A DNA stretch of 47,335 nt from Phycisphaerales bacterium (GTDB taxonomy: Bacteria; Planctomycetota; Phycisphaerae; Phycisphaerales; SM1A02): assembly GCA_028823105.1 (NCBI GenBank), contig JAPKCC010000011.1, positions 1 through 47,335 of the forward strand, written 5' to 3'. Of the stretch, positions 1 through 24,010 are shown piece after piece. A program made the translations under genes and the position numbers. Numbering within the stretch: position 1 is the first letter of the stretch; each line of letters begins with the position of its first letter. Below the pieces are notes generated by a model. The model ran no database searches. It was not told where the DNA came from and saw nothing but the letters and a program-made list of their open reading frames with translations.

Positions 1-30
1 CTTCGGATCCTGCTTCGGATCCTGCTTCGG
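1..30 (-). repeat. 12-bp tandem repeat encoding D-P-K-Q at the window edge
   Basis: Two and a half copies of a 12-bp unit (plus strand cttcggatcctg) encode Asp-Pro-Lys-Gln repeats in the C-terminal tail of the giant secretin. The array runs off the left edge, so its full length and the stop codon are not visible. Confidence 0.85.
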
Positions 31-3000
31 ATCATCGATGGGTTCGAATGCCTCATTGAGTAGCCCGCCGTTGCCCTTGAGCCCACCATCGCGAATCTGT
101 TCGCGAATCAACTCGGGAAGCGGAAGCTCACCGATCATGGAGTCGGTCCAGGATTCGAGGGTGCCGTCGTCAGGTGACCTGATGACTCGCGGGGTCAGCA
201 CGATGATCAGCTCCGTCCGTCGTCGGGTCTCCGTCTCCGATCGGAAGAGGCCACCGATGAAGGGGATGTCACCGAGGAATGGGATCTTCATATCCCGTCG
301 CTCGCTGTTCTCCTCGATCAACCCGCCGATCACTACCGTCTCGCCGTCTTTGACGGTGACCGTGGTGTCTGCCGTTCGCTTGATAATGATCGGGCTGCTG
401 AACGTCTCACTGATATCCGTGGTCTGCTCGCTCAACCGGGAGATCGTCGGGCGGATGTTCATGCGAACGAACCCGTCCGGGTTGATCGTGGGTCGAACCT
501 CTAGAATGATCCCGATTTCCTGAGCCGTGACGGTAGTGGTCTGCGTGCCGGTGTCAAAAGTCGCGATTGAATCGGGGAGCCGGATCTCCTGTCCTACCTG
601 AATGCGACCGTCTTCATTGTTCGCGACGGTGATCGAAGGACTGGAAAGCAGTTGCAGACGACCCTGCGCGTGCATGGCGCTTAGTACGAGACTGAGATCC
701 GTGAAGCCCACCGAAAACGATCCCGTGAGCGGCTGATTAAAGACATCAGGCGAACCGTATCGACCGGTGGTTTTGAGGGGAATCACCCCGACCTTCTCGT
801 TGAGCGTGACGCCGAAATCAGAGTTGTCATCGAGGGTGATCTCGGCCAGCATGACCTGAATGAGAACCTGCGGAGGATCGACATCGAGTTCCTTGATGAT
901 CGATTGGACCTGTTCCATGTACCGGGGTGATGCATTCACCAGCACCGCATTGCTCTTGAGATCCCCGACGATCGTGACTTCACGTTCGAGCAGCCGGGCG
1001 GCCGAGGGCAGTTGATCGGAGTTGAGCGTCTGCACCAACTTTCGCTGATCCTCGCTGACGAACTCGCTCACCACTCGGGCCACTTCGTCAGCCTGAGCGT
1101 TGCGAAGTGTGTAGACGAGGGTCTCTCGTTCATTGGCCGTTTCGGCATCGAGTTCCATGACGACCTCACCGACGAGTTCGAGGTACTTCGGCGTGCCGGA
1201 GACGATCAGCGAGTTGGTCCGACTATCCACGGTGATCGACAACGCCTGCCGCTCGTCGGGGACCATTGTCAGGTCGGTGCCGAACATGTTGCCACCGTCC
1301 GGGGCACCAGCCCCACCGATTCCTGAGGGCTCCATCACCGCGGCGCCGGCAATATCTTCGCGAGGCTTCAACACGTAGAGATTGCCCTGCTGACGAAGTT
1401 GGAAGAGTTCGGTAAGGATCTCCGCCATCGCATCCGCATCAGCGTTCACCAACTTGAAGACCTCAATCCGCTTGGAACCCGTGGAACTGGTGTCGAGATC
1501 ACTGATCATCCGCTCGATCAATTCCATGGACTCCCGTGGCGCACTGACGATCACGGTGTTGGTACGGATGTCGGGGGTGAGCGAAATCGAATCACGAATC
1601 GCACTAGAGACTTCGACCTCCATCTTCTCGGAATCGGCGCCCGGCTCCACGCCATCGATCTGCTGGAGATACCGCATGACGGTCCCGAGCTGGCCGGAAC
1701 GACCGCGGCGACCGCCGCCGTCGAGCACACTCTCGATGAGCGCGACCGTTTCAAGGACATTTGCCGAGGCGAGCGGGAGATACTTCACTTCGACGACCGC
1801 TCCCGGGCGTTCCGAGTCGAGTCTCGAAACAAGGCTGCGGATCGCCTCGATGTCCGCCGGCGCCCCCGACACAAGGATGGCGTTGAGTCGATCGTCGGCG
1901 GTGACCCGGATGATCTCTTCGCCACGCCGCCGGTTCTCGGTACTCACATAGAGCTCGTCGACCAGATCAACCAGGTCCGACGCCCGGTTCCGGGCCACGG
2001 CGATGATCTCCACCGATTGACCCCCGATACGGTCGTTCTGCGCCTTCTTCAATAGTTCGACGAGCTCTCGAACCACGATCTGGTTCTCGCGGCTGGCGGC
2101 AATCACCAGGGCGTTGCTTCCCTCGAGCGGTTCGATCGACACGCGATCGCTCGGGGCCTCCGATTCGCCCAGACTCTGCATCCGGTCCCGCATCAGGGAC
2201 TCCAGTCGCGGCGCGATGTCACGGGCGGATCCGGTCTCCAGGGTGAGCACCTCGATCTCGACCGCGGAGTTCATGGGCGTATCCGCAAGCCTTGCCACAA
2301 GCTCGTTGATCGAACGTCGGTCCTCCGGACTCGCTGCGACCAGAAGTGAATTGGTCCGTGGATCGGTGATGACCAGTGGCTTCTGTCGACGAGCAACATC
2401 TGCGGGGAGATCCGCGTAGCGACGCTCCATGACCCGATTCACCGCGTCGGCGATTCGATCGAGACCGCCCTGCATGATCGGAACCACCTGAATGTCTGCA
2501 ACGCTTCCGATCGAGTCGACGTCGAGATCGGCGGCCAACCGCTCGATCACCTTGAACGTGTCGTTGCCGGCAGCCACCACGAGTGCGTTCGATCGATCAT
2601 CGGCCATGACCACGGCCTTCTCGAGATCCGCGGTCTCCGGTTGAACCTTGCGCATCCGTTCGAGACGAGCGTCCATGAGACGTTGCACCATTGGCCCCAC
2701 TCGGGAGGCGCTCGAATTTGCGAGCTTGATGATCCTAATTTCTCTAAATTCAACGGGGATTTCAGTGTCGAGTCGTGCCAGAAGATCCTCGAAGAGTTTG
2801 AAGCTCCGACTGCTGGTGGAGACCACGATCGAATTCGTACGCAGATCGGGGATCGCCTTGATCCGGTCTTCCTCGCGAATCAAGTCCGCTCGGAACTGCT
2901 GCTCAAAGAGTTGGCGAATCACGGTGGTGATTCGTTCGGCCGAACCGTGCACCACGGCATAAATCCGTACCGCCGCACCCGGAGCCGCGGCCTCGATGTC

Positions 3001-6000
3001 GAGCATCGCGACGAGTTCCTCGACCAGAGCGAGATTCGCCGGGCTGGCCACCACCACCAGGGCATTCAACTGAGGATCGGCCTTGACCATCAAACGCGAG
3101 AGCGGGACGAACACGTCGCTTTCGACCGCTCGAGTTCCACCCACTCGCATGGCTCGCAGGCGAGCGATCTGATTCTGCATCGGCGTCGCGCCGGGAAGAT
3201 CTGTCTGGCCTTCGATCACCGCCGCATCGATGAATTCCGCAAGGTCCGCGGCATCCGCATACTTCAGACGAATCAACTTCGGCTCAACCCAACCGGTGCC
3301 GATCTCCGAATCGAGCTTCCCCTTCATTACTTCAACGAACGCGACCGCCGATTCCTTGCCGGCCGCGATGACCGTGTTGGTCCGTTCATCCACGGTCAGT
3401 GCGACGCGTTCGGTGAGCGAGGCGCCCAATGCACCCTCCGGCATTGCGGGGATCTCGAGACCCGGGAGAACCGCGAGATTACGGCCCTGCTCGAAGAGAT
3501 CCTCGACGATCGAAACAAACCGATCCGCCGCCATGTTCTCCAGGGGGAAGATCTGAACGGTGAGTGCCTCGGTGCTGGGGAGTCGATCGAAGAGGGACAC
3601 AACTTCCACCAACGCCTTGACATTGTCGGGCGTCGAACTGATCAGGATCGAATTGCCCGCTTCATCGGCGATGACGCGAATCGGTTTGGTGAGATCCAGG
3701 GAGATGAGTTTCCCACGACGATCCACCATGTTCAGGCGTCGGATTTGCTCCTTGACGGCGGCGGCGATCGCATTGCCGTCCGGCCCGCCGGCCGGATCGA
3801 TCACCAGATCGACCAGCTTCATGACCGCAATCGCACTTGCCCGCTGCAAGGCCACGACCCGGAGTTCGGAGGTGCCGATTTCACTATCGGGTTCCGCATC
3901 GATCACCTTGAGAATCCCGAGAATCGTCTCCCGGTCTACGGGATTGGCCACCACCAGGACCGCGTTGCGGCCGCTGAGCGTGGAGATCTTGATCGGCTCC
4001 ACGACGAGCCGCGAGGTCGAATCCGCCGGCTGCGGCTTGTCGAGCCCGATCTGCTTCACCGCTCGCTCCGCCACCGCGGCAGGAATGTTCTCGAGGTCGA
4101 TCAGGAAGATCCCCTGTCCTGCCGCCGGCGCCAATCGATCTATCTCCCGGACCGTCTCCGAGACTTCCTTGAAGAAGGGAGCCGTGGAAGCGATCACCAA
4201 GGCGTTACCGATGGCATCCACTTGAATCGAGAAGGGAACTTGGGCCTGCTTGGCCTTCGCGGCGAATGCTTCGCGAACTGCCTCCGCTACCCGAGCCGCC
4301 GGGGCCGATTCGAGTCGGAGCACCCGAACCGAAAGGCCCTTCGAATCTGCTTCCTGCTGCAACGCATTTGCCAGGGCAAGAATCTGCGCGAACTCCTCGT
4401 CGTCCGCTCGGACGATCACCGCGTTCGCGGGCCGATCACCCACGATACGCAGCGTCCCTCCGCGATTCTCGCCTTCCGGCAGATAGATCGTACGAAGCGC
4501 CTCGGCGAGCGACTCTGGGTCACCGGCACCGACGGGAATGAGCCGTGGTGCCGGAAGGCGGATGAAATCAGCCACGTCGAGCTGCTGAACAATGTGCTGG
4601 ATCTTGGCCAGATTCTGGCGGTTCGCAGAAATCACCAGCGAATTAGTCTGCACCTCGGCGCTGGCGCTCACCCATTCCTCGCTCTGCATCAGCACCGGCG
4701 CGGCTGCTTCGTTTCGATCCCGGCTGGGTCGCTCGCCTTCCGGCTGACGATTCTCACTCCGACTTGAGTTCTGATTGCGCCGTGCCGCCTCGACCTGCGG
4801 ACGGAAGGCGTCGTTGATCGCCCGAGAGACGCTCCGCGCATCGGCATAGACCAGCGGAAGTACTGCGAGTTGCAGGGATGCGTCGTACTCTTCGCTGTCC
4901 AGCTGCTCGACGAGTGCAAGGATGCCCTTCCACTCCGGCTCTGCCGCGGTTACCACCAGGCTGTTCGTCGCTTCGTCGGCAATGATTCGGACGTTCTGCT
5001 TGCCCGGCGTGTCGGCTTCCATCGCGTAAGGGCCGTAGAAGTTCGCGAGCGCCTCTTTGAGTTTCGTGGCGTCGGCGAATTGCAGGGCGACGAAATCGGT
5101 GCGACGGGTTCGGGTTCCGGGTGTGTCGAGCTCCGACAGAATGGAATCGATGACTTCGAATTGGTCTGGCGTAGCGCCGACGATGAGTTGATTCTCGAAA
5201 CGGTTGTAGTCCACCGCCACATCCTGCCACTCAAATCCTCGAGCCAACAGCAAGCGTTCGATGGTGTAGGACACGTCCACGGCCGGGGCGTAGTCAAGAG
5301 TGATGATGCGATACTCGATGGGACTTCGCGCGGGTGCCTCTTCGAGCTTCGCAAGGATCGACTCAATCACTGGGAGGCTCGCCTTAGTGGCAGTGACCAC
5401 GATGGAATTCGATCGGCGGTCGGCGACGATCGTCGCCTGGACCTCAATGGGGGCGGAGCCTGGTTCCGCGCCGTCCATCTCGATCGAGATACCTGTGGTT
5501 CGACCATTCTCGTCGAGCCGCAACGTCTCTTGAAGAATACGGGTCGCTTCGGAAGCATCGGCGACGGCGAGGCTATAGGTGCGGATCACGCTCTCAGTGG
5601 TGTCGTCGGGAGCGTCCAGACGACTGATCAGCGCCGCGATCTGAGGGTAAATCTGGCTGGGCGCGTTGACCAAGATGGAGTTCGTTCGAGCGTCCGGCGT
5701 GATGACCACGCCTTCTCCACCTCGACGGGCGAACTGAGCCCCGACCAACGTCGCCATTTCGACCGCATCGCCGCGTTCGATCGGCACGATCTCGATCGAG
5801 CGGGCCCCCGAGAGATCCGGGGCGTCGATCCGTCCGACGAGATCCTTGACCATTCTCACATCGTCCGCGCTTCCGGCCACCAGCATGGCGCCAGAATTCG
5901 GGATCTCGGTCACCACCACGGTCGCCGCCTGCCCGGTTGCCCGCGCGCGACTTCTTAGAAACCGATCCACCGCGTTTGCCACGTCTTGCGCATCAGCAAA

Positions 6001-9000
6001 CTCGGTCCGTACGACCTCGATCTTCGATTCGCCGCCCGCCATCATCGTGTCAAGTTCGTTGATGATCGACTTCACGCCGGCTTGCTGAGTTTCACTTCCG
6101 ACCACGAAGAGCGTGCCAGATCGTTGGTCAGCGAAAATTTTGGTTTCCGACTCGTCAGGCTCGCCCATCCACCATCGCCGATTCTGGGAGCTTTCGACCC
6201 CGAGCGCGTCTCGAAGCACACTCTCCATGAGCTCCACGTCGGTGCCAGCCAACTGGTAGTAGCGGACGACCCGCTTTTCGTCATCCGGCGTGGGAACGTC
6301 GAGCGAGCTGATCAGATCTTCGACTAGTTCGAAGCGGTCTCCCCGGCCGCTCACGATCAACGCGTTCAATCGTTCGTCGACCTGAATCGCGATCGTCCCG
6401 AGGCTGTCGCGAGACTTGTCGCCTCGACGCGACATCCAAGAACGGATGACATTGCCGTCGCTCATGGACAGCGACTGCACGAGCGACTCGACGGTCTGCG
6501 ACGCGTCTGCGGCACGAGCATGCTTCAAGGCGTAGATCCGATACTCGTATCCCGCGGTCGAGTCCTTCTCGTCAAAGGTGGCGGCAAGCTTGCTGACTTC
6601 CTCGAACGTAGGTTCATCACACGCCACCAACAGCGTGGCTCCGCCGGTTCGCCCAGTGATCGCGACCGTCGAGGACTGAGCTCTGCGGCCTCGCCCCGAC
6701 GAGAAGAGCTGCGCTCGATCGTCGTAGAACTGTTGGATCGCGTCGGCGACTTCGCCCGCATCCGCCCGCTGAAGTTCGAGCGTCTGAACCGGGAATCGGC
6801 TCGTCGCCTCGCGATCGATTCTCCCCAGAACGTCCTTCATCTCCGAAAGGGTTGGGCCGTCCGCCCTCACCAGCAGAATTCCGGACTCGTCGTCGGGAAG
6901 GACCAGCGTGGTGGATCGCAACCGTTCATCGTTTCCGATCACCGCCTGGTCGAGGATCCGTGCTGCGGTGCTCGGCTGCGCCGAGACCAGCTCGATGACG
7001 GTGAGCGGATTCCGTTCGCTTCCGTCCTCGACGTCGAGTTGCTTGAGCAGGCTCTCGACCTCGGCAAGTTCTTCCGTGCTCGCCGTCACGATCAGTTGGT
7101 TGCTCCGAGTGTCAACCGCGAAATCAGGTTCCGCGGCTTTCGACGAACCACTTCGGCGGATGTTTCTGAACCGAGTCTGGAAGATCTGCCGGAGGGTCTT
7201 CTGGAGTTCGGCAGCACGTGCATACCGAAGCTCGAACAGCCGGAGCGTGGTCCGATCACCCTTGGGCGACTGGGTCGCGAGCTCGATGTATCGGTCGACA
7301 AACGGAATCGCCGCCTCTGGTGCCATCACCACGAGCGCATTCGCTTCTGAATCCGCCACGGCCGTCACCTGCGTCGGATCGAACTGCGCCTGGACCGTCC
7401 GGCCGTCTGCATCCAGGGTGATCGCCAGTTCGTTGAACCGTCCCTTTCCAGGCCGGAGCAATAACGCGTTGAGACCGCTGGCCGCTCGATCAGCGCTCAT
7501 GTCGGTCAACCGGTAGACCCGGACCACCACTCGCGCCGCCTCGGCGGGTCGGGCCACCGACGCGATAAGATCCGCGATGAGCGAAAAGTCGTCCTCGCGA
7601 CAGGCGATCACCAGAGAATTCGAGGTCAGATCCGGAACCACTGCGGTCCGCCGGCTGAGATCCCCGGGTTTTCCACCCGCGGGAACCAGTTGGCGAAGAG
7701 TCGCCGACACGACATTCGCAACGTTGCGGACATCCACGTTCGCGGGAAGCGGGACCGTTCTGATCACGCTTCCTTCACCGGGAAGCGAATCCTCAACCTC
7801 GGCGGCAAGCCCCTGGACCTGATCCAGCTCTCGCGGCGAACCGAGAATGATGAGCGAGTTGGTCGCCGGGTCGATCGCGATGATCACTTCGGCTTCGTCC
7901 TGGACCACAGCCGCCGGTTCCGTGTCTTGAGCCGCCACGGGAATTGCGGAGAGCGAGACCGCAAGCACTGCCGAACGCGCGAAGCCGAGTAGGCCTACCG
8001 GACCGGGGGTGGTCGCTCGGGAGATCTTGCCTCCGACCTTTTTCTGAGGCTTGGTTCGTTTCAGAAGCTCGTCGATGGGAACGATTCGCACCCGATCGTC
8101 GTCCTCGCGATCGAGCATTCGCTCGATCATCCGGGCGATATCTTCCGCCGAACCTCGGCTCGGATCAATCGGGATGGTCCGCAACTCTCGAGCCACGTTC
8201 AGCGATGCGTCGTCGATGCTGTTCACGATCGATTCGATCTCCGTGAATTGGTCGGGCGTCGCCCGGACCAGCAAGGTGTTGCTTGATGCATTGACTCGGA
8301 TCGCCGGCGGAGCTTGCCCGTCGTCGTCCTCGGCGAAGAGTTCGTCGAGCGTGGTCGCAAGTTCACGAGCGTCGGCGTTTCGGATCTCCAAGACTCGAAT
8401 CGACCGGCCCCCGTCAACCCCCGCAGGCACGTCGAGTTGCGAGACGAGTTGCTCGGCCGCGTTCAAGACGGCACTTGGCCCCGTCACCACAATCGCGTTG
8501 AGTCGGTCGTCGGCGAGCACGCGGATCGTCGCCTCTTCGGGGATCTGTCCGCGAACCTTCGCCATCATCAATTCTGCCCGCATCCATCCCGGGAGATCCT
8601 TGGGATCGACGCCCGCTTGCTCCGCGAGCATTCGTTCCACGAGCGGGGCGATCCGAGCGGCCGACGCATGCTTGAGAAAGACAGTTCGAACCTGCACGCC
8701 GCTCCCTGAAGTTTCCATGACCGTCAATTGCGTGGCCACGATTTCCTGGAGACGAGGCGATGCGGTCACCACGATCGCATCGGATCGTCCGGCGGACGCG
8801 ACCACCGGCTTCGGCTCACCTGGCCTTGACGATACGGCTGCATCGAGCGCCGCCTGCAGGGCCGACGCCATTCCTTCGGCGCCCCCTGCCGGAACTGGAT
8901 ACACCCGGACCTCGACCGTATCTCCGGCCGAGTCTTGATCAAGCTGCTTGGCAAGCGTCGTAGCGATCGACTGCAACACTGCAGGAGCAGATACCAGGAG

Positions 9001-12000
9001 CCGGTTGCCGGACACGTCCGCCGTCACACTCGGCTCGGCCATCATCACCCCCGCCCGCATGGCGTCACGAAGTGAGTCCGGCCATCGAGTGCGATCCCGG
9101 AGGATCGGGCCGATGGTCGCTGCCACTGCGGTCGCTTCCGCATTCTTCAAAGTGATCACCCCAAAGTCGATGGCGGGAAGCACCGGCACGTTCGCGTCCC
9201 ATTCCTGAAGCAGCGCGATGGCTCGATCCGCTTCCCCTTGGGTGCCCACGACCAGGATGGCACCGCTCTCCGGCTCCAGCATGAGTTCGAGGCTGGACCG
9301 TGTTCCGCCGGGGCGGGTCTGGTCGAGGACCTCTTGCGCCGTCCCCAGAAGCCGTTCCGCGTTCGCGTTTCGAGGGGTGAAGGTGGCGTATGTTCGTTCG
9401 GAGTTCGCGTCGGGCCGATCGAGTTTTTCGATGAGGCTTCCCGCGAGACTCACCGCCTGCTGGGGACCACTGACGATCAGGCTGTTGGTTCGATCATCCG
9501 CTTCGACTCGGACCTTCGGAGTGAGATCCACCATCCCACGACTCCGGCGAATCCGCTCCATGAGAATTCGAGGATCACTTCCCTGCTGGTCGTCGAGCAG
9601 GGTCTGCACGACCGGGGCGATCCGCGTGGCATCGGCGTGCGCAAGATCGAAGGTCCGAGCATCCATAGCGTCGGTCGCGGGGCGTGCGTCAAGTGGCTCG
9701 ATGAGCAGCTGGACCTCTTCGATTTCTTCCGGGATTCCAACCAGCAGCAGAGCGTTGGAACCGGCTGCGGGGACGACCTTGACCGCCATGGCATCTCCGG
9801 TTGCCGGGCTGGTCATGCTCGGGAGCGCCTGCTGCAACGCGGCCGCGACCACGGTGGCGTCCGCGAACATCAGCGGGTGCACCCGAACCGTCGGATCACC
9901 GACGACCGACGCGGAGGAATCGAGCGTTCGGATCAGCTCTTCCGCCACCGGCATCACGATGTCCGGAGCCGAGATGATGATGGTGTTGGTCTTTCGATCG
10001 GCGGTCACGGTGAGCAGCCGTTGAATCTCACGATCACTTCCCCGGGAGGACTCAACCATTCTCGCCACCAAAATCTCGCGGAGCATCGGCGCGAGGGAAT
10101 CGGCTCTGGCCTGCGTAAGCCGGAAGGTCCGAAGGCTGGTCGCCGGCACCACGGGGCCAGACTCGAGTGATTCGATCACCTTCGTAATTCTCGCGAAGAT
10201 CTCTGTCGGTCCTGAGACGAGGAGGGTGCCACTCGCGGCATCTACCGTGATGGAGATGGAAGTGGACACACCTTGCTCGCTTCCCCCGAGATGTCCGTCA
10301 TCCGCAAGCTCGCGGAGCATCTTGGCGGTGGCTTCCAACTCGAGGGTGGGTAGTTTCCAGGTTCGAATTTCGGTCTCTTCGCCGAGTTGTGTCTGGTCGA
10401 GTTGCTGGACGAGCTTCTCGAATCCCGCCATCCGCTGGATGGGGGCGTCGACGATCAATGCGTTCATCTGCGGATTTGCCCGGACCACGACTTCGCGAGG
10501 TTGCTGCAGATCAGCCCGAGGTCGGCCGCGGCTGTCTCGGGGCATCGGCGGCTCCGGATACATCTGGTCGATCGTCTTCGCCAGGTCCTCCGCCCGCGCG
10601 ACCCGCAACGGGAAGATTCGGATCTCCCGACCTTCGGCGTCAAGTCGGTCGGCATCGTTGAGATCCGACACGATGGTGCGAATCTCTTCGAGAAGATCCG
10701 GATGCGCCGCCACGATCAACGCGTTGGTCGCAGAATCAGCACTGATTCGCACGGGTTTCGCGGCCTTCTCTTCGTTCGAACGACGGTCGTAGGTCTGACC
10801 GAGGGCCAGCGCGAGATTCCCCGCGTCGGCGGTTCGGACCTGAAGGATGCGAATGGGTGGAAGGGCCTCGTCCGCGGTGTCGATGGTGTCGATGATCTGG
10901 CGGATAATCTCATGCTCGCGGGGTTCGGCCGCGATGAGGATCGCATTCACCTGCGGAAGTGCCTCGATGACCGGAGGTGGGCCTCCGAGCGTCGCGACGG
11001 CGAGTTCGTTTCCGAGCAACTCGGTCAGCATTTCGACGACCTCGGTCGAGTCGCTGTGTTGAAGCGAGAGGAGACGGATGTCCGGCGGCCTCGCCTGCGT
11101 CGATTCGAGTTGCGCGACCACCTGACTGAATCGATTCAACGACTCGTCTTCGCCGACGGCAAGAATGGTCCCGTTGACCGCATCAACTTCGACTTCCACC
11201 GCGGTGAAGTCCGGGTTGCCGGCGGTCTGTTCCTCAAAGAGCCGGGTCGCTCGGGCGGCGATCTCGGTGGCATCTCCGGCCGTGATCTCGATGACCCGCA
11301 GGGCTCGAGTGACCGGGACGGCTTCCAGATCCGCGAGGATCTCCTCGATCTTCCCGAACGTGAACTCGTCGCCAGCCACGATCAGAGTTCGACTTCGAGG
11401 TTCGAACTGAACGGTGACCTCGACCGCCTTTTCACCATTCGTGCCGGGGCGACTGAGCACGCCCTGCTGGGCGAGATTCTGGAGTGTGCTGGCGATCTGC
11501 GATCCTTCGCCGCGGACGATGTTCCAGGTTTTCAATGATGCCTGCGGAGGCAACTCGATGCGATCGAGCTGCTGCACCAGTTCCTCGAAGCTGGCCTTGC
11601 GTCCGCTCGGTGCCTCAATGATCAGCGTGTTGGTCCCACCATCGGCACTCACGAAGACCTCTCGCGGCTGACGAAGGTGCGGAAGCGGACGCCCGCGGGT
11701 ATCAAGGGGCATCGGCGGCTCGGGATAGAGCGTGCCGAGGGCCTTCGCCAGATCTATGGCCCGAGCGAGCCGCAACGGAAAGATCATGGTCTCCCGTTCC
11801 GCTTCGGTCTCGGTGCTTCGATTCAACGACTCGACAAAGTCCTTCATCTCGTCGAAGACCGCTTCGTGGGCCGTGACCACCAGGGTGTTGGTCGCTGCAT
11901 CGGCTTCAACTCGAACCGGCTGCTCTCGACGGATGTCGTTGGGCCGGGCGTCGTACCGGGAGGTAAGCAGCCTCGCGATCTGCGTGGCGTCGCTTCCCCC

Positions 12001-14253
12001 AAGTTGGAGCATCCGGAGCGGCGGCATATCCGTCGGCTCGAACACGTCGAGCTCGCGAACGAACGCCTCGATGGACTTCACTTGGGCGCTGTCGCCCCGG
12101 ACCCAGAGGCTGTTGGTCGGCGTGATGACCTCGATGGTGGGCGGCGCGATCAGTCGGCCATCACCGATTTCCGTCGTTGTCTCGATCATGGCGAGAAGCG
12201 GAATGAGAACTTCCGAAGCTCTGGCCTGTTGGATCGTGATCATCCGGCTCACCGGCGCCGGCGGAAGCAACCGCCGTGCTTCAGACAAGGATCGCTCGAA
12301 GGCCTGGACCGACTTCGTCGAGCCCATCACTTCGAAGACGCCCGTGACCGGATCGACGGATACTTCCGGCCGAGGGAGTTCGCCTTCCGCAAGCATGCCC
12401 GCCTGCCGATCGAACGCCGCCAGCGACCGCTCCAGCAGGAGGTTGCCGTCGCTCGTGCCGAGGGGGATCACGCGGTAGGTGATGTCTCCGGGCTGAGGAC
12501 GATCCAGGGTGGTCAACAGTGTGTCAATGGTGACGAACTGATCAGGCCCGGCGGTCACGATGAGAATTCCCAACGCGTCGACCGCTTCGAATGTCGGCGG
12601 CGTGAACGGACTCCCGTCGCGCGGCTTCAGCATGGATCGCGAGAGCGTCGACAGGGAATTCACCAGACGACTGGGAGCGGTCGAGTTCACAGTGAACTGA
12701 CGCACCATGGTTTTGGCTTCCACGGTTGCTTCAGCGGAAGCGAGTGATCGTTCGAAGGCATCGAGTGCCTCCTTATTTCCTTCGATCACCAACCGCCGGG
12801 AGGGAAGATCAAAGTCCGCTTCCACTACCAGCGAGGGTTGCCCGGCGGTCATGGCCTCGAACATCCGCGTGGCTCGAGCCACGGCGACGGCAGGGTCGAC
12901 CGCGTCGACCATGAGGTAACGAACTTGCCGATCCACGCGACCCGGCTGGTCGATGAGAAGGATCGTCTTTCGAACGGAATCCAGGTCTCCCGCCGGACCG
13001 GCGGCAATCAGGCTCTCTCCGTCAGGCCCGGGCACCAGTTTCACCACAGCCGCCTGTCGCGGCGTGAATACCGCCTGGCAGGCCTGAATCGCTGATTCTG
13101 GCGATGCATGGTTGAGCGACAGCAAGGCCACGGACGCCGCCCCAGGGTTATTCGTCGCTCCGCCGCTCTCGAGGTCGGCGAGGAAACGGGTTGCATGATC
13201 GATCAATTCCGCATCGGCGGAGATGGTCAGGCGATTCGTCTCTTCGAGTGCGACGTAGGTCGGCTGCTTCTCCTTGGGAAGCCCCGCGAAGAGCGCGTCG
13301 AGTTTGGCCCGTGCGTCGGCGACCGTGAGCCGCTCGAGCTGGATGGTCCGCATCGACATCACTGAACCGACGTTCTCCGAGTCGAGCAACTCGATGGCGC
13401 TCCGAAGTCGCTCAAGACGACGCGGAGTTCCTCGAGCGATGATCGAATTGGTCCGTTCGTCGGCGGTGATTCGGAAGCCTACAGGCATCACGTCTTCTTC
13501 GACCTGGACCTTCGCCTTGCCCCGAGTCACCGTCTTGACCACCCGCTCGCTCATCAACTTCGTGAGCGTCGGTAGAAGTTCGGTGGCGCTCGCATACCTG
13601 AGCTGGATCTGCTCGACCTTGTTCTCGACGTCTTCGCGATCGAGTTCGTCGACGATGAGTTGAATGCGACGGACGTTCGCCGCCGTCTCGACCAGGAGCA
13701 GCGAATTCTGCTCGGGAAGCGCGACGACCATTCCGTAGTCGGCGACCATCTCCTTCAACTGCTCGGAGACGTTTGCGGCCGTGGCATTGAGGAGCGGCAC
13801 GATGAGCGTCACCAGTGTGTCCGCGGTCACGTTCTCCGGGAGTTCGCCGACGAAGGTGGGGATGTTTTCCTTCTTGATATTCGCGAGTTCTTCCAACACC
13901 AGCCGGCCGTCTTCATCGCGAAGCACAAGCCCCCGAGTCTGCAGAAGAAGATTCAACGTCTCGAGCGCCTTCGGGAGCGGATACGGGGCCGGGTTGATGT
14001 AGTCGACCGTCCCCTCCGGCACTTCCGCATCTCGGACGATCGGAAGACCGGTCACCCGCGAGAAGTAGTCCAGCACCTGATCCCAGGTTTGGTTCTTGAA
14101 ATTGAACCGCACCTGCGGCACGCCTTGGTCATCCAGGACCGGGCGAGGCGGTTCGCCATCCTCCTGTGCGTACGCCAATGGCGCACCCACGAAGAGGCCG
14201 ATCGAGGCCGTCGCAAACATGGTCCACCGAGCACACTTCCGGATCTTTTTCAT
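1..14253 (-). CDS. gspD: Giant type II secretion secretin (GspD-like) with about 52 N-domain modules, 3' end outside the window
   Basis: Outer-membrane secretin of a type II secretion system, expanded far beyond the usual 650-750 residues. The frame is open from ATG 14253 (GGAG about 7 nt upstream) to the left edge, 4751 codons. Residues 1-29 are a signal peptide ending AYA before QE. Residues about 38-105 resemble the N0 domain. Then come about 52 modules of roughly 65-95 residues, each ending in a strand of the type D-x-R-T-N-S-L-I-V followed by a helix ending L-D. The cores recur every 210-300 bp from about 13690 down to about 950. The pore domain (residues about 4455-4692) has the hallmarks IQVMLAEI, LSSPSI and IPFLGDIPFIGGLF. 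It ends in a hydrophilic tail with D-P-K-Q repeats. Module 38 carries an Arg/Asn/Glu-rich insert (about 4700-4800) and module 51 a Gly-rich insert (about 1245-1400). The family assignment is firm; how the modules assemble is unknown. Confidence 0.93.
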   Translation of the reverse strand, partial: MKKIRKCARWTMFATASIGLFVGAPLAYAQEDGEPPRPVLDDQGVPQVRFNFKNQTWDQVLDYFSRVTGLPIVRDAEVPEGTVDYINPAPYPLPKALETLNLLLQTRGLVLRDEDGRLVLEELANIKKENIPTFVGELPENVTADTLVTLIVPLLNATAANVSEQLKEMVADYGMVVALPEQNSLLLVETAANVRRIQLIVDELDREDVENKVEQIQLRYASATELLPTLTKLMSERVVKTVTRGKAKVQVEEDVMPVGFRITADERTNSIIARGTPRRLERLRSAIELLDSENVGSVMSMRTIQLERLTVADARAKLDALFAGLPKEKQPTYVALEETNRLTISADAELIDHATRFLADLESGGATNNPGAASVALLSLNHASPESAIQACQAVFTPRQAAVVKLVPGPDGESLIAAGPAGDLDSVRKTILLIDQPGRVDRQVRYLMVDAVDPAVAVARATRMFEAMTAGQPSLVVEADFDLPSRRLVIEGNKEALDAFERSLASAEATVEAKTMVRQFTVNSTAPSRLVNSLSTLSRSMLKPRDGSPFTPPTFEAVDALGILIVTAGPDQFVTIDTLLTTLDRPQPGDITYRVIPLGTSDGNLLLERSLAAFDRQAGMLAEGELPRPEVSVDPVTGVFEVMGSTKSVQAFERSLSEARRLLPPAPVSRMITIQQARASEVLIPLLAMIETTTEIGDGRLIAPPTIEVITPTNSLWVRGDSAQVKSIEAFVRELDVFEPTDMPPLRMLQLGGSDATQIARLLTSRYDARPNDIRREQPVRVEADAATNTLVVTAHEAVFDEMKDFVESLNRSTETEAERETMIFPLRLARAIDLAKALGTLYPEPPMPLDTRGRPLPHLRQPREVFVSADGGTNTLIIEAPSGRKASFEELVQQLDRIELPPQASLKTWNIVRGEGSQIASTLQNLAQQGVLSRPGTNGEKAVEVTVQFEPRSRTLIVAGDEFTFGKIEEILADLEAVPVTRALRVIEITAGDATEIAARATRLFEEQTAGNPDFTAVEVEVDAVNGTILAVGEDESLNRFSQVVAQLESTQARPPDIRLLSLQHSDSTEVVEMLTELLGNELAVATLGGPPPVIEALPQVNAILIAAEPREHEIIRQIIDTIDTADEALPPIRILQVRTADAGNLALALGQTYDRRSNEEKAAKPVRISADSATNALIVAAHPDLLEEIRTIVSDLNDADRLDAEGREIRIFPLRVARAEDLAKTIDQMYPEPPMPRDSRGRPRADLQQPREVVVRANPQMNALIVDAPIQRMAGFEKLVQQLDQTQLGEETEIRTWKLPTLELEATAKMLRELADDGHLGGSEQGVSTSISITVDAASGTLLVSGPTEIFARITKVIESLESGPVVPATSLRTFRLTQARADSLAPMLREILVARMVESSRGSDREIQRLLTVTADRKTNTIIISAPDIVMPVAEELIRTLDSSASVVGDPTVRVHPLMFADATVVAAALQQALPSMTSPATGDAMAVKVVPAAGSNALLLVGIPEEIEEVQLLIEPLDARPATDAMDARTFDLAHADATRIAPVVQTLLDDQQGSDPRILMERIRRSRGMVDLTPKVRVEADDRTNSLIVSGPQQAVSLAGSLIEKLDRPDANSERTYATFTPRNANAERLLGTAQEVLDQTRPGGTRSSLELMLEPESGAILVVGTQGEADRAIALLQEWDANVPVLPAIDFGVITLKNAEATAVAATIGPILRDRTRWPDSLRDAMRAGVMMAEPSVTADVSGNRLLVSAPAVLQSIATTLAKQLDQDSAGDTVEVRVYPVPAGGAEGMASALQAALDAAVSSRPGEPKPVVASAGRSDAIVVTASPRLQEIVATQLTVMETSGSGVQVRTVFLKHASAARIAPLVERMLAEQAGVDPKDLPGWMRAELMMAKVRGQIPEEATIRVLADDRLNAIVVTGPSAVLNAAEQLVSQLDVPAGVDGGRSIRVLEIRNADARELATTLDELFAEDDDGQAPPAIRVNASSNTLLVRATPDQFTEIESIVNSIDDASLNVARELRTIPIDPSRGSAEDIARMIERMLDREDDDRVRIVPIDELLKRTKPQKKVGGKISRATTPGPVGLLGFARSAVLAVSLSAIPVAAQDTEPAAVVQDEAEVIIAIDPATNSLIILGSPRELDQVQGLAAEVEDSLPGEGSVIRTVPLPANVDVRNVANVVSATLRQLVPAGGKPGDLSRRTAVVPDLTSNSLVIACREDDFSLIADLIASVARPAEAARVVVRVYRLTDMSADRAASGLNALLLRPGKGRFNELAITLDADGRTVQAQFDPTQVTAVADSEANALVVMAPEAAIPFVDRYIELATQSPKGDRTTLRLFELRYARAAELQKTLRQIFQTRFRNIRRSGSSKAAEPDFAVDTRSNQLIVTASTEELAEVESLLKQLDVEDGSERNPLTVIELVSAQPSTAARILDQAVIGNDERLRSTTLVLPDDESGILLVRADGPTLSEMKDVLGRIDREATSRFPVQTLELQRADAGEVADAIQQFYDDRAQLFSSGRGRRAQSSTVAITGRTGGATLLVACDEPTFEEVSKLAATFDEKDSTAGYEYRIYALKHARAADASQTVESLVQSLSMSDGNVIRSWMSRRGDKSRDSLGTIAIQVDERLNALIVSGRGDRFELVEDLISSLDVPTPDDEKRVVRYYQLAGTDVELMESVLRDALGVESSQNRRWWMGEPDESETKIFADQRSGTLFVVGSETQQAGVKSIINELDTMMAGGESKIEVVRTEFADAQDVANAVDRFLRSRARATGQAATVVVTEIPNSGAMLVAGSADDVRMVKDLVGRIDAPDLSGARSIEIVPIERGDAVEMATLVGAQFARRGGEGVVITPDARTNSILVNAPSQIYPQIAALISRLDAPDDTTESVIRTYSLAVADASEATRILQETLRLDENGRTTGISIEMDGAEPGSAPIEVQATIVADRRSNSIVVTATKASLPVIESILAKLEEAPARSPIEYRIITLDYAPAVDVSYTIERLLLARGFEWQDVAVDYNRFENQLIVGATPDQFEVIDSILSELDTPGTRTRRTDFVALQFADATKLKEALANFYGPYAMEADTPGKQNVRIIADEATNSLVVTAAEPEWKGILALVEQLDSEEYDASLQLAVLPLVYADARSVSRAINDAFRPQVEAARRNQNSSRSENRQPEGERPSRDRNEAAAPVLMQSEEWVSASAEVQTNSLVISANRQNLAKIQHIVQQLDVADFIRLPAPRLIPVGAGDPESLAEALRTIYLPEGENRGGTLRIVGDRPANAVIVRADDEEFAQILALANALQQEADSKGLSVRVLRLESAPAARVAEAVREAFAAKAKQAQVPFSIQVDAIGNALVIASTAPFFKEVSETVREIDRLAPAAGQGIFLIDLENIPAAVAERAVKQIGLDKPQPADSTSRLVVEPIKISTLSGRNAVLVVANPVDRETILGILKVIDAEPDSEIGTSELRVVALQRASAIAVMKLVDLVIDPAGGPDGNAIAAAVKEQIRRLNMVDRRGKLISLDLTKPIRVIADEAGNSILISSTPDNVKALVEVVSLFDRLPSTEALTVQIFPLENMAADRFVSIVEDLFEQGRNLAVLPGLEIPAMPEGALGASLTERVALTVDERTNTVIAAGKESAVAFVEVMKGKLDSEIGTGWVEPKLIRLKYADAADLAEFIDAAVIEGQTDLPGATPMQNQIARLRAMRVGGTRAVESDVFVPLSRLMVKADPQLNALVVVASPANLALVEELVAMLDIEAAAPGAAVRIYAVVHGSAERITTVIRQLFEQQFRADLIREEDRIKAIPDLRTNSIVVSTSSRSFKLFEDLLARLDTEIPVEFREIRIIKLANSSASRVGPMVQRLMDARLERMRKVQPETADLEKAVVMADDRSNALVVAAGNDTFKVIERLAADLDVDSIGSVADIQVVPIMQGGLDRIADAVNRVMERRYADLPADVARRQKPLVITDPRTNSLLVAASPEDRRSINELVARLADTPMNSAVEIEVLTLETGSARDIAPRLESLMRDRMQSLGESEAPSDRVSIEPLEGSNALVIAASRENQIVVRELVELLKKAQNDRIGGQSVEIIAVARNRASDLVDLVDELYVSTENRRRGEEIIRVTADDRLNAILVSGAPADIEAIRSLVSRLDSERPGAVVEVKYLPLASANVLETVALIESVLDGGGRRGRSGQLGTVMRYLQQIDGVEPGADSEKMEVEVSSAIRDSISLTPDIRTNTVIVSAPRESMELIERMISDLDTSSTGSKRIEVFKLVNADADAMAEILTELFQLRQQGNLYVLKPREDIAGAAVMEPSGIGGAGAPDGGNMFGTDLTMVPDERQALSITVDSRTNSLIVSGTPKYLELVGEVVMELDAETANERETLVYTLRNAQADEVARVVSEFVSEDQRKLVQTLNSDQLPSAARLLEREVTIVGDLKSNAVLVNASPRYMEQVQSIIKELDVDPPQVLIQVMLAEITLDDNSDFGVTLNEKVGVIPLKTTGRYGSPDVFNQPLTGSFSVGFTDLSLVLSAMHAQGRLQLLSSPSITVANNEDGRIQVGQEIRLPDSIATFDTGTQTTTVTAQEIGIILEVRPTINPDGFVRMNIRPTISRLSEQTTDISETFSSPIIIKRTADTTVTVKDGETVVIGGLIEENSERRDMKIPFLGDIPFIGGLFRSETETRRRTELIIVLTPRVIRSPDDGTLESWTDSMIGELPLPELIREQIRDGGLKGNGGLLNEAFEPIDDPKQDPKQDPK
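181..895 (-). other. Secretin pore (C-) domain within the giant gspD
   Basis: This part of the giant gene encodes the beta-barrel-forming secretin domain, residues about 4455-4692. It opens with PQVLIQVMLAEITL. It continues through LSSPSITVANNEDG near 580-660, a typical secretin stretch. It closes with VVIGGLI, the block IPFLGDIPFIGGLF at about 243-296, and ELIIVLTPRVI near 181-215. All family hallmarks are present in order, so the outer-membrane channel looks intact even though the periplasmic part is hugely enlarged. About 60 further residues follow before the window edge. Whether a pilotin-binding S-domain follows cannot be seen. Confidence 0.92.
7930..8043 (-). other. Internal signal-peptide-like segment inside gspD
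   Basis: In frame with the giant secretin, residues about 2071-2108 read as a second Sec signal peptide. A basic stretch (KKVGGKISRA) is followed by GLLGFARSAVLAVSLSAIPV and a VAA cleavage-like site before QD. It splits one N-module: the first half ends near 8085 (VRIVPID) and the second half, with DPATNSLIILG, resumes near 7870. No in-frame ATG precedes it, but a GTG at 8089-8091 has GAGGA 10 nt upstream and could start a separate exported product. Frame continuity on both sides was checked codon by codon. It may be a fusion scar, an internal start, or a real membrane anchor. Confidence 0.8.
10165..10870 (-). repeat. Copy 2 of the internal multi-module duplication in gspD
   Basis: Second copy of the modules 9-11 type block (here modules 14-16). 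The PEPPMP landmark lies at about 10541-10560, versus about 11708-11728 in copy 1. The divergence between copies is clear at protein level, so the duplication is old compared with the copy count, but it is younger than the split between most other modules. Confidence 0.8.
11330..12040 (-). repeat. Copy 1 of an internal multi-module duplication in gspD
   Basis: Modules 9-11 of the secretin closely match modules 14-16 at 10165-10870. Shared landmarks are LYPEPPMPLDTRGRPLPHLR here and MYPEPPMPRDSRGRPRADLQ there, with the same order RMLQ/RILQ, IFPLR and FEELVQQLD/FEKLVQQLD. The offset is 1164 bp at the RMLQ site and 1167 bp at the PEPPMP site, both multiples of three. This implies an in-frame block duplication of about 389 residues (five modules) with one codon gained or lost. 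Confidence 0.8.
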
Positions 14254-14499: not shown

Positions 14500-15483
14500 T
14501 CAAGGAAGCGGACGATCCAGAGTCGAACCGATCAGCACTCGGAAGGTTTCGTCGCCGACTCGGAAGCTGGCGATGTCGCCGGAGGCGGCTTCCAGTTGCA
14601 GGACGATCTGCCTCCCGATTCGCTTCTTCCCCGACAGGGGCAGTTCGATCGTTTCACCGCTCTCGATCTGCCGGAGCCATGCTTCCGTCCCATCCGGCCC
14701 TTCCATGATGCCGGTCAGCAACCAGAACGACCGAGGATTCGCTCGAACCACCGGCGGAGTCGGCCTCGGCACGATGACGTCCGGAGTCGCCGGCGTATCG
14801 GGGAGTGAGAAGGGGTTCGCCGCCACCAGCGACTCGTACCTGGTTCCAGGTCTTCTCGATGAACGCGGTCGTTGGTCGAGTTCGCCGTCACCGGCGAGAC
14901 CGGGAATGAACAGGGTGGCGACTCCGACCGCGATCGTGATCGATTTCCCCTCCCGATCGGGATCGAGCCTCACCTGCTCGATCCGTTTCAACCATGGTGT
15001 GGCATCAAGCTCATGCAGGAAACGAACCACGGCATCGATCGGCCCCACACCCTTGACGTTCGCTCGCACCAGCACGAAATCTGGTTCTTCGCGAAAGGCG
15101 CGTTCATTTCCGGATCTTGAGAACTCGCGCACCGCGGGCGTCGCGATCACTGCGGCGCCGATCGTGGACACGCTGGCACCCCTGATACCCGCAGACTCGG
15201 CGAGCATCGCCAGCCGCCTCCGCAGATCACTGTCGACGGATTCCAGTTCCGAACCGATCGAACGATCGACGACCATGGCGAGACGTTCGTCCAGCGCCGG
15301 ACGTTCCGTCCGTTCCTCTCGAACCGTCAGCAAGACATTCCGATAGAGGTCGATCTTGCGAACAATCTCGGATCGATCGCCGCCCAGCCTCCCCGCACCG
15401 ACGGCCCAACCCAGCACGCCGGACCCACCGAGGACCCCGAGTGCCACAGAGACGAGAACGAGTCTTCGCTGCCGACGATTCAC
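14500..15483 (-). CDS. GspM/PilO-like inner-membrane protein with a C-terminal PilP/GspC-type domain
   Basis: T2SS assembly-platform protein of 327 residues. It starts at GTG 15483, which overlaps the gspL stop as GTGA and has a strong GGGAGG site upstream. A short basic N-terminus precedes one membrane helix (residues about 8-32). A periplasmic part (about 60-205) looks like the PilO/GspM ferredoxin-like fold, with VDAVVRFLHEL-type strand-helix spacing. It then has a linker with ANPFSLP (about 222-228), a motif typical of PilP/GspC linkers, and a compact C-terminal domain (about 245-320: LLTGIMEG, TIELPLSGK, VGDETFRVLIG). PilP and GspC proteins contact the secretin N0 domain, so this fusion could be the link to the giant secretin. 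The M-like part is fairly secure; the C-like part is inferred. Confidence 0.65.
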   Translation of the reverse strand: MNRRQRRLVLVSVALGVLGGSGVLGWAVGAGRLGGDRSEIVRKIDLYRNVLLTVREERTERPALDERLAMVVDRSIGSELESVDSDLRRRLAMLAESAGIRGASVSTIGAAVIATPAVREFSRSGNERAFREEPDFVLVRANVKGVGPIDAVVRFLHELDATPWLKRIEQVRLDPDREGKSITIAVGVATLFIPGLAGDGELDQRPRSSRRPGTRYESLVAANPFSLPDTPATPDVIVPRPTPPVVRANPRSFWLLTGIMEGPDGTEAWLRQIESGETIELPLSGKKRIGRQIVLQLEAASGDIASFRVGDETFRVLIGSTLDRPLP

Positions 15484-16973
15484 TCCTCACCTCCCGTCTC
15501 GGAGTCGGACTCGGAGTCGGGGTCGGATTCGACCGGACCAGGATCAATCACCTTGGTCCGCATCGAGAAACCGAAGGGGTAGGGAAGTCGTCTTCCGCCC
15601 CCGGCATCCGCCCCGGTCGTTCGCAACACGTACCGATCATCCGCCACGAGTACATCGCGGACCTCTGCCGCGGCATCACGACTTCGGGATTCCCCTTCAA
15701 CGATAATGCGGACGTTGGGATCAACCACAAATTTCTTCTCGGGAGTGAAGGCGATCTTGTCGTCCTCGAGAAAACCTCCGAATTCATCGAGGACGGTTCC
15801 GCCCCTGTCGATGCCCGGCGCCGCCACCACCAGGAGATGTTCCAACCAGGCAGGTCGGACCGACGTCCATGCTTCGAGATGGCCGGCGCGAAGGACATCC
15901 CGTTTGAATCTGAGATGCTCGTCCTTACCGGCTCTGGCCTTCCCCAGTAGGTCGGTCGATTCGGAACGAAGAGACTCAAGCTGCGACCCTCCGATCGTCC
16001 AACCGATACCCGCCGCGATCAAGGCCAGTCCCGCGATCGCAAGCGTCTTCTGGCGAATCCTCGCGGCGCGATCAGGCGTCTTCCGAGGGGCTGCCAGATC
16101 GACCTGGCGATCGGCCGCCGTCGGAAGCAGGAGACCCACCAGGGGCCACACCCCACGCATGTCTACATCGGCCTGCACCCGGCGATCACCGATGAACCGC
16201 TGGGTGGTGAGTCCGGTGGCCTCGGAAATCCGCCCGATGGAGTCTGCAATCTGTTCACCACCGAGCACCAGAAGCATCGGGGATTCAATCTCGCCCGCGG
16301 AGACGCGATAGCTCAACCAGCTTCGGCGGATCTCTGGAACGAGTTCGTCCGCCGTCGGCGGCGCACCGTCAACGCCGTCTAGGGCGACGCCGCGCGACCA
16401 CTTGAGAAATCCATCCTCGACCAGCCCCAATTCAAGGCCCTCCCCAGTCACATCGAGGAACAAGGTCGGTTCCACCGGATCCGCAAGTCGCATGGCGCCA
16501 TGGCAACGAGGAGCGATGCGCGCGACTTTCAGGCCTGCCGCATCGGCGATCGCGTGGATTCGCTCAATCTCCCGCTTCGGGACCGCCACCGCCTCGACCA
16601 CGAAGACCCCCGGGTTTCGTTCGATGATCGAGAAGTCGATCACCGCATCTCCCGCATCGATGGGCAGTTCCCGTTCCACCGCGATCTGGACCATCGCCGG
16701 AAGTTCGTCAGGATCATCCGTGGGAAGTTCGAGACGCTTGAAACTCGTGATCGAGCGATCAAGGGCGAAGACCGCCGGGCCCGCGCCGAGGCCGGCGCGG
16801 GCCATCGCCGCGCCGAGGGCCGCGCCGATCGCCGCAGCGTCGTCGGTCGCGACGCTCTCGGGGATCGTTTCAAAGACCGTCGCAGTCAGCGTGGTTCGAC
16901 GCCCCGGACGAATTTTCACCGCACGCAGGGCGCGGTGTCCGACATCGACGGCGAGTTGGATGTTCCGAGCCAT
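15480..16973 (-). CDS. gspL: GspL-like protein (PilM-type ATPase fold fused to a PilN-type domain)
   Basis: Inner-membrane platform component of 497 residues. Residues 1 to about 270 resemble PilM/cytoplasmic GspL (actin-like fold): AVDVGHRALRAVKI at the start, ALDRSITSFKRLELP and MVQIAVERELPID. One membrane helix lies at about 309-330 (LAIAGLALIAAGIGWTIGG). A coiled segment and a PilN-like periplasmic domain with a VRIIVEGE strand follow, and the protein ends in a Ser/Asp/Glu tail. It starts at ATG 16973 with AAAGG upstream and overlaps the next gene by 4 bp. GspL normally recruits the GspE ATPase to the membrane; no gspE is visible here. Confidence 0.8.
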   Translation of the reverse strand: MARNIQLAVDVGHRALRAVKIRPGRRTTLTATVFETIPESVATDDAAAIGAALGAAMARAGLGAGPAVFALDRSITSFKRLELPTDDPDELPAMVQIAVERELPIDAGDAVIDFSIIERNPGVFVVEAVAVPKREIERIHAIADAAGLKVARIAPRCHGAMRLADPVEPTLFLDVTGEGLELGLVEDGFLKWSRGVALDGVDGAPPTADELVPEIRRSWLSYRVSAGEIESPMLLVLGGEQIADSIGRISEATGLTTQRFIGDRRVQADVDMRGVWPLVGLLLPTAADRQVDLAAPRKTPDRAARIRQKTLAIAGLALIAAGIGWTIGGSQLESLRSESTDLLGKARAGKDEHLRFKRDVLRAGHLEAWTSVRPAWLEHLLVVAAPGIDRGGTVLDEFGGFLEDDKIAFTPEKKFVVDPNVRIIVEGESRSRDAAAEVRDVLVADDRYVLRTTGADAGGGRRLPYPFGFSMRTKVIDPGPVESDPDSESDSETGGEE

Positions 16974-18790: not shown

Positions 18791-19596
18791 CGTTGCCCCT
18801 CGCCTTCTGCCCGAGATTCCGAGACCGGAACCGCATCAAGAATCGCGACCACCCGAACGTGATCCGGCCGGGGCATCGGATCGTCGGTGGTGAGGAAGGT
18901 GGGTGACCCGGAGAACGGATCTCCGGCATCGCTTCCAAACTCCGCCGCGAACGCATCGTCGGAAAAAGCCCCTCCCGACTCGGCGTCGAACTCGTCTTCG
19001 CCGTCTTGATCGACATCCGGCATCCACTCGGGTCGCAGCCCCTCTGGCCAGGGAGTCGTCCAGATCGCACACTCGATCGCGACCGGCAGGCCCGCAGCAC
19101 CGCTGTTCCAGGAGTCGGACCACGCCGTCCCATCGTGATACTGAAAACGAATCGCGAAGACGTCCGGCACCAGCGTCGACCAAGCCCCACCGTCGCCATC
19201 TCTCACCTCGAGGCCGCCGCCTCGGAACGCCAACTCGATGGCGTGCTTGTCGAAGAGCGGAGAGACCTCGGTATCTCCCCGGGAAAGGCGGCTCGTCGCG
19301 ACGCCGCTTCGAGTGACCAGGAGCGACGTGGCATCACCGACCACCCCCGCGTCACCGGCTCCGTCGGTCGCCACGACGGTATCCGCGGCACGGGCAAGCA
19401 GTTCAAGGGCCGACGTGGCGCCCTCGACGACCAGCGCTCCGCGCTGGATTCTTTGCCGCGCGTCAACGAGATCATCGAAGACCGTCGTCATCACCAAGAG
19501 CAGGGTGACCACCATTGCGAGCGACAGCAACGTCTCAAGCAACGTGAAGGCGGAAGGGCGTCGTCTCCGGGATCGGACATGCGGTCGAAACGTCAT
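18787..19596 (-). CDS. gspJ: General secretion pathway protein J, minor pseudopilin
   Basis: Minor pseudopilin of 269 residues. The basic leader RSRRRRPSA precedes FTLLETLLSLAMVVTLLLVM, the class III signal followed by the hydrophobic helix. The residue before the cleavage point is Ala, where Gly is usual. Glu at +5 is present. The globular part includes ALELLARAAD and FAIRFQYHDGTAW, in keeping with the GspJ beta fold. It starts at ATG 19596, which overlaps the gspI stop (ATGA) and has GGAGGTGG upstream. It ends in overlap with gspK. Acidic insertions occur near residues 200-235 (DVDQDGEDEFDAE). Confidence 0.8.
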   Translation of the reverse strand: MTFRPHVRSRRRRPSAFTLLETLLSLAMVVTLLLVMTTVFDDLVDARQRIQRGALVVEGATSALELLARAADTVVATDGAGDAGVVGDATSLLVTRSGVATSRLSRGDTEVSPLFDKHAIELAFRGGGLEVRDGDGGAWSTLVPDVFAIRFQYHDGTAWSDSWNSGAAGLPVAIECAIWTTPWPEGLRPEWMPDVDQDGEDEFDAESGGAFSDDAFAAEFGSDAGDPFSGSPTFLTTDDPMPRPDHVRVVAILDAVPVSESRAEGEGQR

Positions 19597-20078
19597 CTCG
19601 CTTCCACCTCCCCGTCCGAGGCTTCCGAAGGCGTCTCAGATCCGGCGTTGCCCAGTCCGTCCGGAACCAACGCGACGAGTCGGGCGAGCTGACGTTCGTC
19701 AAGAGCGAGTGATGAGGAGGACTCATCGACCTCAAAGACCGAGACCACCACCCGAACCAGTCCGACGAAGCCCGATGACTCCGCTTCCATCTCGATCCGG
19801 AACGGAGACGGCGATTCCTCGAACTCTTCCGCTTCGAATCCCGGTTCATCCTCCGAGTCATATGGCGAGACAAGCCCCGCCTCGATCTCGGCGATGCGAC
19901 TCGATGCGAGATCGACGGCGACGATCCTGAGCCTGGCTCGTTCGGCGGCCACGATGCTGTCTCGAACCGCGCCCAATGCGAAGGTGGCGATCCCGACGAA
20001 AATAGCGATGGCAATGAGGGTCTCCAGAAGGAGACCACCGCGACGGTCGGCCTGTGAAGGTGTGAGCCGTCGCTTCAC
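19593..20078 (-). CDS. gspI: General secretion pathway protein I, minor pseudopilin
   Basis: Minor pseudopilin of 161 residues. The leader DRRG is followed by GLLLETLIAIAIFVGIATFA, with cleavage expected between the two glycines and Glu at +5. The stretch LRIVAVDLASSRIAEIEAG matches the usual GspI helix after the membrane segment (A-x-x-L-A-x-x-R-I-x-E). It starts at GTG 20078, overlapping the gspH stop, with GGAG upstream. The C-terminus is an acidic Ser/Glu/Asp tail. It lies between gspH and gspJ as in standard T2SS operons. Confidence 0.8.
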   Translation of the reverse strand: MKRRLTPSQADRRGGLLLETLIAIAIFVGIATFALGAVRDSIVAAERARLRIVAVDLASSRIAEIEAGLVSPYDSEDEPGFEAEEFEESPSPFRIEMEAESSGFVGLVRVVVSVFEVDESSSSLALDERQLARLVALVPDGLGNAGSETPSEASDGEVEAR

Positions 20079-22770: not shown

Positions 22771-22829
22771 GACCACCACTCTACCGAGCGGTCATGGCGG
22801 GTTGCGGGGAACCCCGGAAAATTGCCTAT

Positions 22830-23777: not shown

Positions 23778-24010
23778 TTCTTTGATTCCTTGAGCACGCC
23801 CTCTCATCGCTCCGATTCCTGCAACGGAAACACGGAACTCCTCGAAGGCACTGGGTCAAGGATGCCCCGTGCACAGCACCCTGCAAGTATCCGGAACGCG
23901 GAATTCCACTCGCAGGTACAGCCGTATCGACTGTATCGATTTCACCGTTCGGATCGGTCGTGGTGATGCGGGTGATTCCGTCTGTAGGGCCTTGAACGAC
24001 CGGACATCGG

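Follow-up and report, generated by a model that had tools for sequence, protein, structure and literature searches.

A giant type II secretion-type secretin with about 52 tandem N-domain modules in a marine planctomycete

A marine planctomycete of the order Phycisphaerales encodes a protein-export channel about seven times the usual length, which carries about 52 ring-type domains against the three of its relatives. On the sequence evidence, this giant secretin is a real, conserved and exceptionally large variant of a known secretin type. It is probably the outer-membrane GspD of a type II secretion system (T2SS) whose neck has grown from N0 plus N1-N3 to N0 plus 52 conserved modules, and we infer that this neck forms a stacked-ring periplasmic conduit of more than 100 nm.

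Results

The Giant Secretin Frame

The window, that is, the whole stretch of DNA analyzed (47,335 nucleotides), is the entire contig C75 of a 3.35 Mb genome in 194 contigs. As originally predicted, positions 1-14253 of the minus strand form an uninterrupted secretin frame of at least 4751 residues, open over 4751 codons and with correct coordinates. From base composition alone, the log10 probability of meeting no stop in such a frame is about -62, and the remaining five frames of the same stretch carry 27-187 stops each. The start was placed at the ATG at 14253; a further in-frame ATG lies upstream, at 14310. The C-terminal tail (1..177, minus strand) is interrupted by the contig end and its last residues are absent. 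Homologues L043 and L044 run past the same point, and the printed tail of L043, from the same genus, extends about 30 residues further.

The end of the contig within the gene could point to an assembly or frame artefact, with repeats collapsed or concatenated. This explanation was ruled out, its probability being practically negligible, by independently assembled genomes, some of them single-contig, whose frames match in length and hold colinear modules. No tandem DNA repeat was found within the frame except in its final 33 bases, and the low identity of the repeats makes assembly confusion unlikely. Neither a frame break nor an assembly collapse, which the original prediction had named as refuting it, was found, since independent genomes carry the same long frame.

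Domain Architecture and Predicted Fold

The protein begins with a Sec signal peptide (residues 1-29, ...APLAYA followed by QEDG; 14167..14253, minus strand), which was read from the translation; the N-terminus aligns in the same-genus homologues. An N0 domain follows (residues ~48-125; 13879..14112, minus strand). A phmmer search with residues 50-292 matched the GspD N0-N1-N2 crystal structures 3ezj, 4e9j and 5mp2, bearing out the N0-like domain of the prediction, and residues 4339-4695 gave PDB sequence matches to N2-N3-pore, indicating that both ends of the protein are ordinary GspD. The secretin pore domain (residues 4526-4692; 178..678, minus strand) is complete, as had been claimed: PF00263 (Secretin) aligned over its full length (1-169/169), and Foldseek matched it to GspD cryo-EM structures.

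Between N0 and the pore lie 52 tandem N1-type (Secretin_N) modules (residues 150-4459; 877..13806, minus strand), recognized by Pfam, by a profile of their own, by predicted fold and by Foldseek. In the profile search that had been proposed as a check, Secretin_N matched the window protein with 1207 bits in 39 separate stretches, next to the one whole Secretin domain, so the modules do match this family. The profile built from the protein's own repeats gave 53 hits, which resolve into 52 modules after joining the two halves of module 25, the number (about 52) first estimated. The expected spacing of 210-300 bp was nearly right; the true pitch is slightly wider, mostly 63-109 residues (about 190-330 bp), with a median of about 240 bp. 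By sequence comparison, about 48 modules are thus added between two ordinary GspD ends. Two Pfam KH families, KH_DEAH11 and KH_SLS1_1, also exceeded their cut-offs on N-modules (residues 4323-4370 and 2941-2969 of the window protein), a cross-match that agrees with secretin N-domains having a KH-like fold.

AlphaFold models were obtained for residues 3998-4751 and for nine mid-array modules (1130-1860), with pLDDT of 70 and 76. Every module in these two parts was predicted as beta-alpha-beta-beta-alpha. In Foldseek, the best PDB match of the C-terminal model was GspD (E 3e-29), and those of the mid-array model were GspD/XcpQ N-domain chains (E 2e-8 and weaker). With a pTM of only 0.34-0.36, the models do not fix how the modules sit relative to one another. 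Inter-module linkers are short, but disorder is predicted for several long loops and for the long module-25 linker.

Conservation and Orthology of the Modules

Of 101 genomes sampled from the own family, at least 52 have a secretin frame of 2000-5088 aa without stops, including single-contig genomes of 3.84 and 3.94 Mb; the frames of the one-contig genomes G009 and G032 encode 4856 and 4808 aa. For about half of the genomes sampled, no giant frame is among the matches listed. The 56 named related loci come from metagenome-assembled Phycisphaerae/Phycisphaerales genomes, including the chromosome record CP070772.1, and no cultured carrier was identified among them. That dozens of related species keep these domains, and keep them in one order, indicates that the giant secretin is real and selected for.

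Species of the same genus are 89-90% identical in the giant secretin (L043, 89.5%), and the alignments with L043 and L044 contain just 6-11 internal gap columns over 4751. The comparison with L043 gave a dN of 0.06 and a dS of 0.96, and pN/pS per module ranged from 0 to 0.27; by these substitution rates, purifying selection acts on every module. Modules were then paired across genomes as reciprocal best matches. Against other genera of the own family (f1), all pairs were colinear (52/52, 51/51, 50/50 and 51/51), as they were against the neighboring family f2 (42/42) and a 38-module member (31/31), whereas random pairing left at most 17 of 51 modules colinear. The modules are, by these alignments, orthologous by position.

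Array Evolution and Spread

The number of modules ranges from 20 to 56 and changes by gain or loss of blocks. In shorter arrays of the order, runs of consecutive modules are missing, such as 10-22, 17-22, 7-11 or 46-47, and L046 has an additional four-module insertion following its module 5. The mean similarity score is 43.9 for adjacent modules and 42.8 overall. Since adjacent modules are not more similar than distant ones, the array appears to be old and not homogenized. Recent tandem slippage was ruled out: the DNA of the array shows no tandem repeat, and neighbors are no closer than distant modules. The clearest later block duplication, with an offset of five, is marked by modules 9-10 and 14-15, which are far more similar than all other pairs; the duplicated modules 10 and 15 lie at residues 820-898 and 1209-1288 of the window protein.

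Giant secretins also occur in further families of the class (f4, f5, f7, f13, f14, f15, f21 and f24; 31-42 modules). Intermediate arrays were found in f16, f18 and f26 (about 15 modules), f83 (10-13) and f71 (7-8), with standard secretins elsewhere. In other planctomycete classes, intermediate T2SS secretins of 1200-2300 aa carry 7-13 modules (L057-L059 of f83, L060 of f71), some with long inter-module inserts. Module order is common within f1, f2 and f5, within f4, f14, f15 and f24, within f7 and within f21, and only partially between these groups. In a quick tree of the pore domain, at least four changes of size class are required, and the starred branches force two. A trait universal to the class was ruled out, because several sampled families list only standard-size secretins and presence in the own family is patchy.

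The Module-25 Linker and a Split Gene

The linker in module 25 (residues ~2066-2121; 7891..8058, minus strand) is variable and of low complexity and contains a hydrophobic segment (GFARSAVLAVSLSAIPVAAQ) that is signal-peptide-like in the window's genus (GFARSAVLAVSLSAIPVAAQD). Relatives have weaker hydrophobic segments at the same position, and the AxA-type end is not universal. In three species of one related genus (L082/L132, L117/L133 and L131), the gene is split exactly at this linker into two neighboring frames. The first encodes N0 and 17-19 modules, with no pore. The second encodes 24 modules and the pore, with a signal-peptide-like start of its own. In one species the split consists of a single stop in the same frame, and in the other two the halves lie in different, overlapping frames. 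This split indicates that two polypeptides can together make up a secretin neck. It is also independent evidence for a non-covalent association between the modules of the two halves, of the kind that stacked rings would have.

The Secretion Locus and Other Secretins of the Genome

The giant secretin gene (D) is the last gene of a locus with the order F-G-H-I-J-K-L-M-D on one strand, and is thus encoded with the pseudopilins G-K, the platform protein F, L and M. For H, I, J and L the matches are weak and stay under the curated cut-offs, and M was assigned by position only. The GspF platform protein (21583..22779; all coordinates here refer to the minus strand) matched PF00482 twice (E 2e-47). 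The GspG-like major pseudopilin (20850..21362; GFTIIELLIVIGI) was read directly from the sequence. The minor pseudopilins are GspH-like (20075..21109; PF07963 and TIGR01708 from residue 93, the true start being inside the frame), GspI-like (19593..20078; TIGR01707, E 6e-5, under the curated cut-off), GspJ-like (18787..19596; PF11612 T2SSJ, E 4e-4, under the curated cut-off, with a pilin-type N-terminus) and GspK-like with a helix-hairpin-helix (17024..18790; 588 aa, PF12836). A GspL/PilM-like protein of 497 aa (15480..16973), with 31 bits to TIGR01175 pilM, under the family cut-off, is conserved beside D. The GspM-position protein (14500..15483; 327 aa), identified by position only, combines a Pro-rich linker with a conserved C-terminal domain and is conserved upstream of D in 40 loci. 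The K-L-M-D order is repeated in related loci, and L- plus F- or K-type neighbors also adjoin shorter secretins of other classes.

No GspE was found within the window; six strong matches to T2SSE-family ATPases lie on other contigs of the genome. For GspC, whose HR domain is the usual N0 partner, no PF11356 match was obtained anywhere in the genome, even at E 10, a search that a diverged partner could escape. In Pfam, NCBIfam and PDB, the GspM-position protein matched no family to any notable degree; it might serve as the N0 partner replacing GspC. Its conserved C-terminal domain carries the motif W-LTG--GPDG-EAWLRN; a GspC-like domain was suspected from this motif and was rejected, having neither Pfam nor PDB support.

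Adjoining gspF is a 325-aa protein (22830-23807, minus strand) with a signal peptide, a C-terminal hydrophobic stretch followed by RRRRR, and 18-bp tandem repeats (23083-23241) coding GDDSGD. It is possibly a sorted or secreted substrate. Two further secretins occur in the host genome, a standard GspD-type one of 924 aa with four N-modules (L125, 1092-3863, minus strand) and a PilQ-like one of 886 aa (L126, 9251-11908, minus strand).

Discussion

With the T2SS secretin GspD (XcpQ/PulD/ExeD; TIGR02517, PF00263 and PF03958), the window protein shares N0, N1-type modules, the pore, its position in a T2SS locus and PDB matches at both ends. It differs in having at least 4751 aa, where the listed solved GspD chains have 472-657 aa, and in that no GspC was found in its genome. 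Because it carries 52 N1-type modules in place of the canonical three (N1-N3), it is better described as a GspD variant than as a standard GspD. The type IV pilus secretin PilQ was considered and rejected: the protein scored 1177 bits as GspD versus 427 bits as PilQ (TIGR02515), no AMIN domain was among its Pfam hits, and the neighboring pseudopilins H-I-J-K are of T2SS type.

A precedent for lengthening a neck by additional N-rings is Thermus thermophilus PilQ, with six stacked rings (N0-N5) that span the organism's wide periplasm, 350 A including the pore, and which has been called one of the largest characterized secretins (PMC5745081). That protein has 757 aa and serves a type IV pilus, whereas the window protein has about 53 N-domains in a T2SS locus. 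Closer to the window, the intermediate planctomycete secretins (1200-2300 aa, 7-15 modules; L056-L060 and L140) also have N-module arrays and probably the same T2SS locus, but with far fewer modules, in an order largely not common with the window array. A link to the crateriform structures of Planctomycetia, outer-membrane structures that join the outer and cytoplasmic membranes (PMC5394234), was considered and set aside, since described Phycisphaeraceae isolates are reported to be without them (PMC8882080). No giant secretin was found described in the literature searched, which left most subscription papers and preprints out of reach. The view that no secretin of this size had been described agrees with this search, in which the largest characterized neck was that of six rings (PMC5745081).

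In the mechanism that we favor, about 15 copies would assemble so that each module closes into one ring, and the rings would stack into a tube running from N0, at the inner-membrane platform, to the pore in the outer membrane. Extrapolated from the 80 A of the XcpQ N0-N1-N2 ring (PMC5646246), that is, about 2.7 nm per domain, a neck of 53 domains would measure about 140 nm. The pseudopilus and substrates would travel through this closed conduit. Two neck sections would meet at the module-25 linker, as separate polypeptides in one genus and as a single, possibly cleaved, chain here, and the position-specific module sequences may keep the rings pairing in the right register. The original prediction of a neck several-fold longer through stacked rings stands as the best mechanism, but the low pTM leaves the inter-module geometry unfixed.

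The same features can be read in other ways. Only N0 and the last few modules of the T2SS secretin may form rings, the middle being a flexible bead chain that bridges a gap of variable width, tethering the outer-membrane pore to the inner membrane. The long loops and module-25 linker that are predicted to be disordered, the unfixed module orientation in the AlphaFold models and the tolerated loss of blocks would all suit such a chain. A tether, however, would need a covalent link to the pore, which the N-terminal half in the split genus does not have. The strong purifying selection on each module's own sequence and the position-specific orthology also speak against it, and we regard it as unlikely. 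The distinctness of each module and its conservation at its own position, together with the reported binding of an effector by XcpQ N0-N1 (PMC5646246), could instead suggest an array for binding or display of substrates, peptidoglycan or polysaccharide, and not a structural tube. But no inserted binding domain was seen, and module fold and size remain near those of ring-forming N-domains, which makes this reading improbable.

Cleavage of the giant chain at the module-25 segment, by signal peptidase or another protease, is a possible though doubtful variant, in which a proximal tube of N0 and 24 modules would dock with a distal tube of 27 modules and the pore. It draws on the AxA-type end in the window's genus, the weaker segments at the same place in relatives and the natural gene split at this point in one genus, with its signal-peptide-like second start. 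On the other hand, that end is not kept in all relatives, and at about 15 residues the internal segment may escape recognition.

The favored stacked conduit also raises the question of why the neck is so long. The deep periplasm offered in the original prediction is not established as the reason. For Planctopirus, a periplasm that is both wide and invaginated has been documented (PMC5394234). In the present genome, however, the four-module GspD-type and PilQ-like secretins work in the same envelope, which weakens this explanation and indicates that envelope depth is not a sufficient reason for the length. A specialized site or substrate class is as likely as envelope depth.

This lineage uses about 53 N-domains, their order kept across genera and into a neighboring family, where the largest characterized neck found has six rings. 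With chances that we judge evenly balanced, the giant secretin would be a two-section conduit of more than 100 nm in which about 50 homo-oligomeric rings, non-identical and each with a position-specific identity, are stacked; it would be several-fold longer than any characterized secretin neck and among the longest periplasmic protein tubes. The natural series of lengths (7, 13-15 and 20-56 modules) could be used for testing N-rings as an envelope ruler, and bears on in-register ring stacking and on the long-distance guidance of folded proteins or a pseudopilus. The naturally split form, moreover, offers a secretin neck assembled from two polypeptides.
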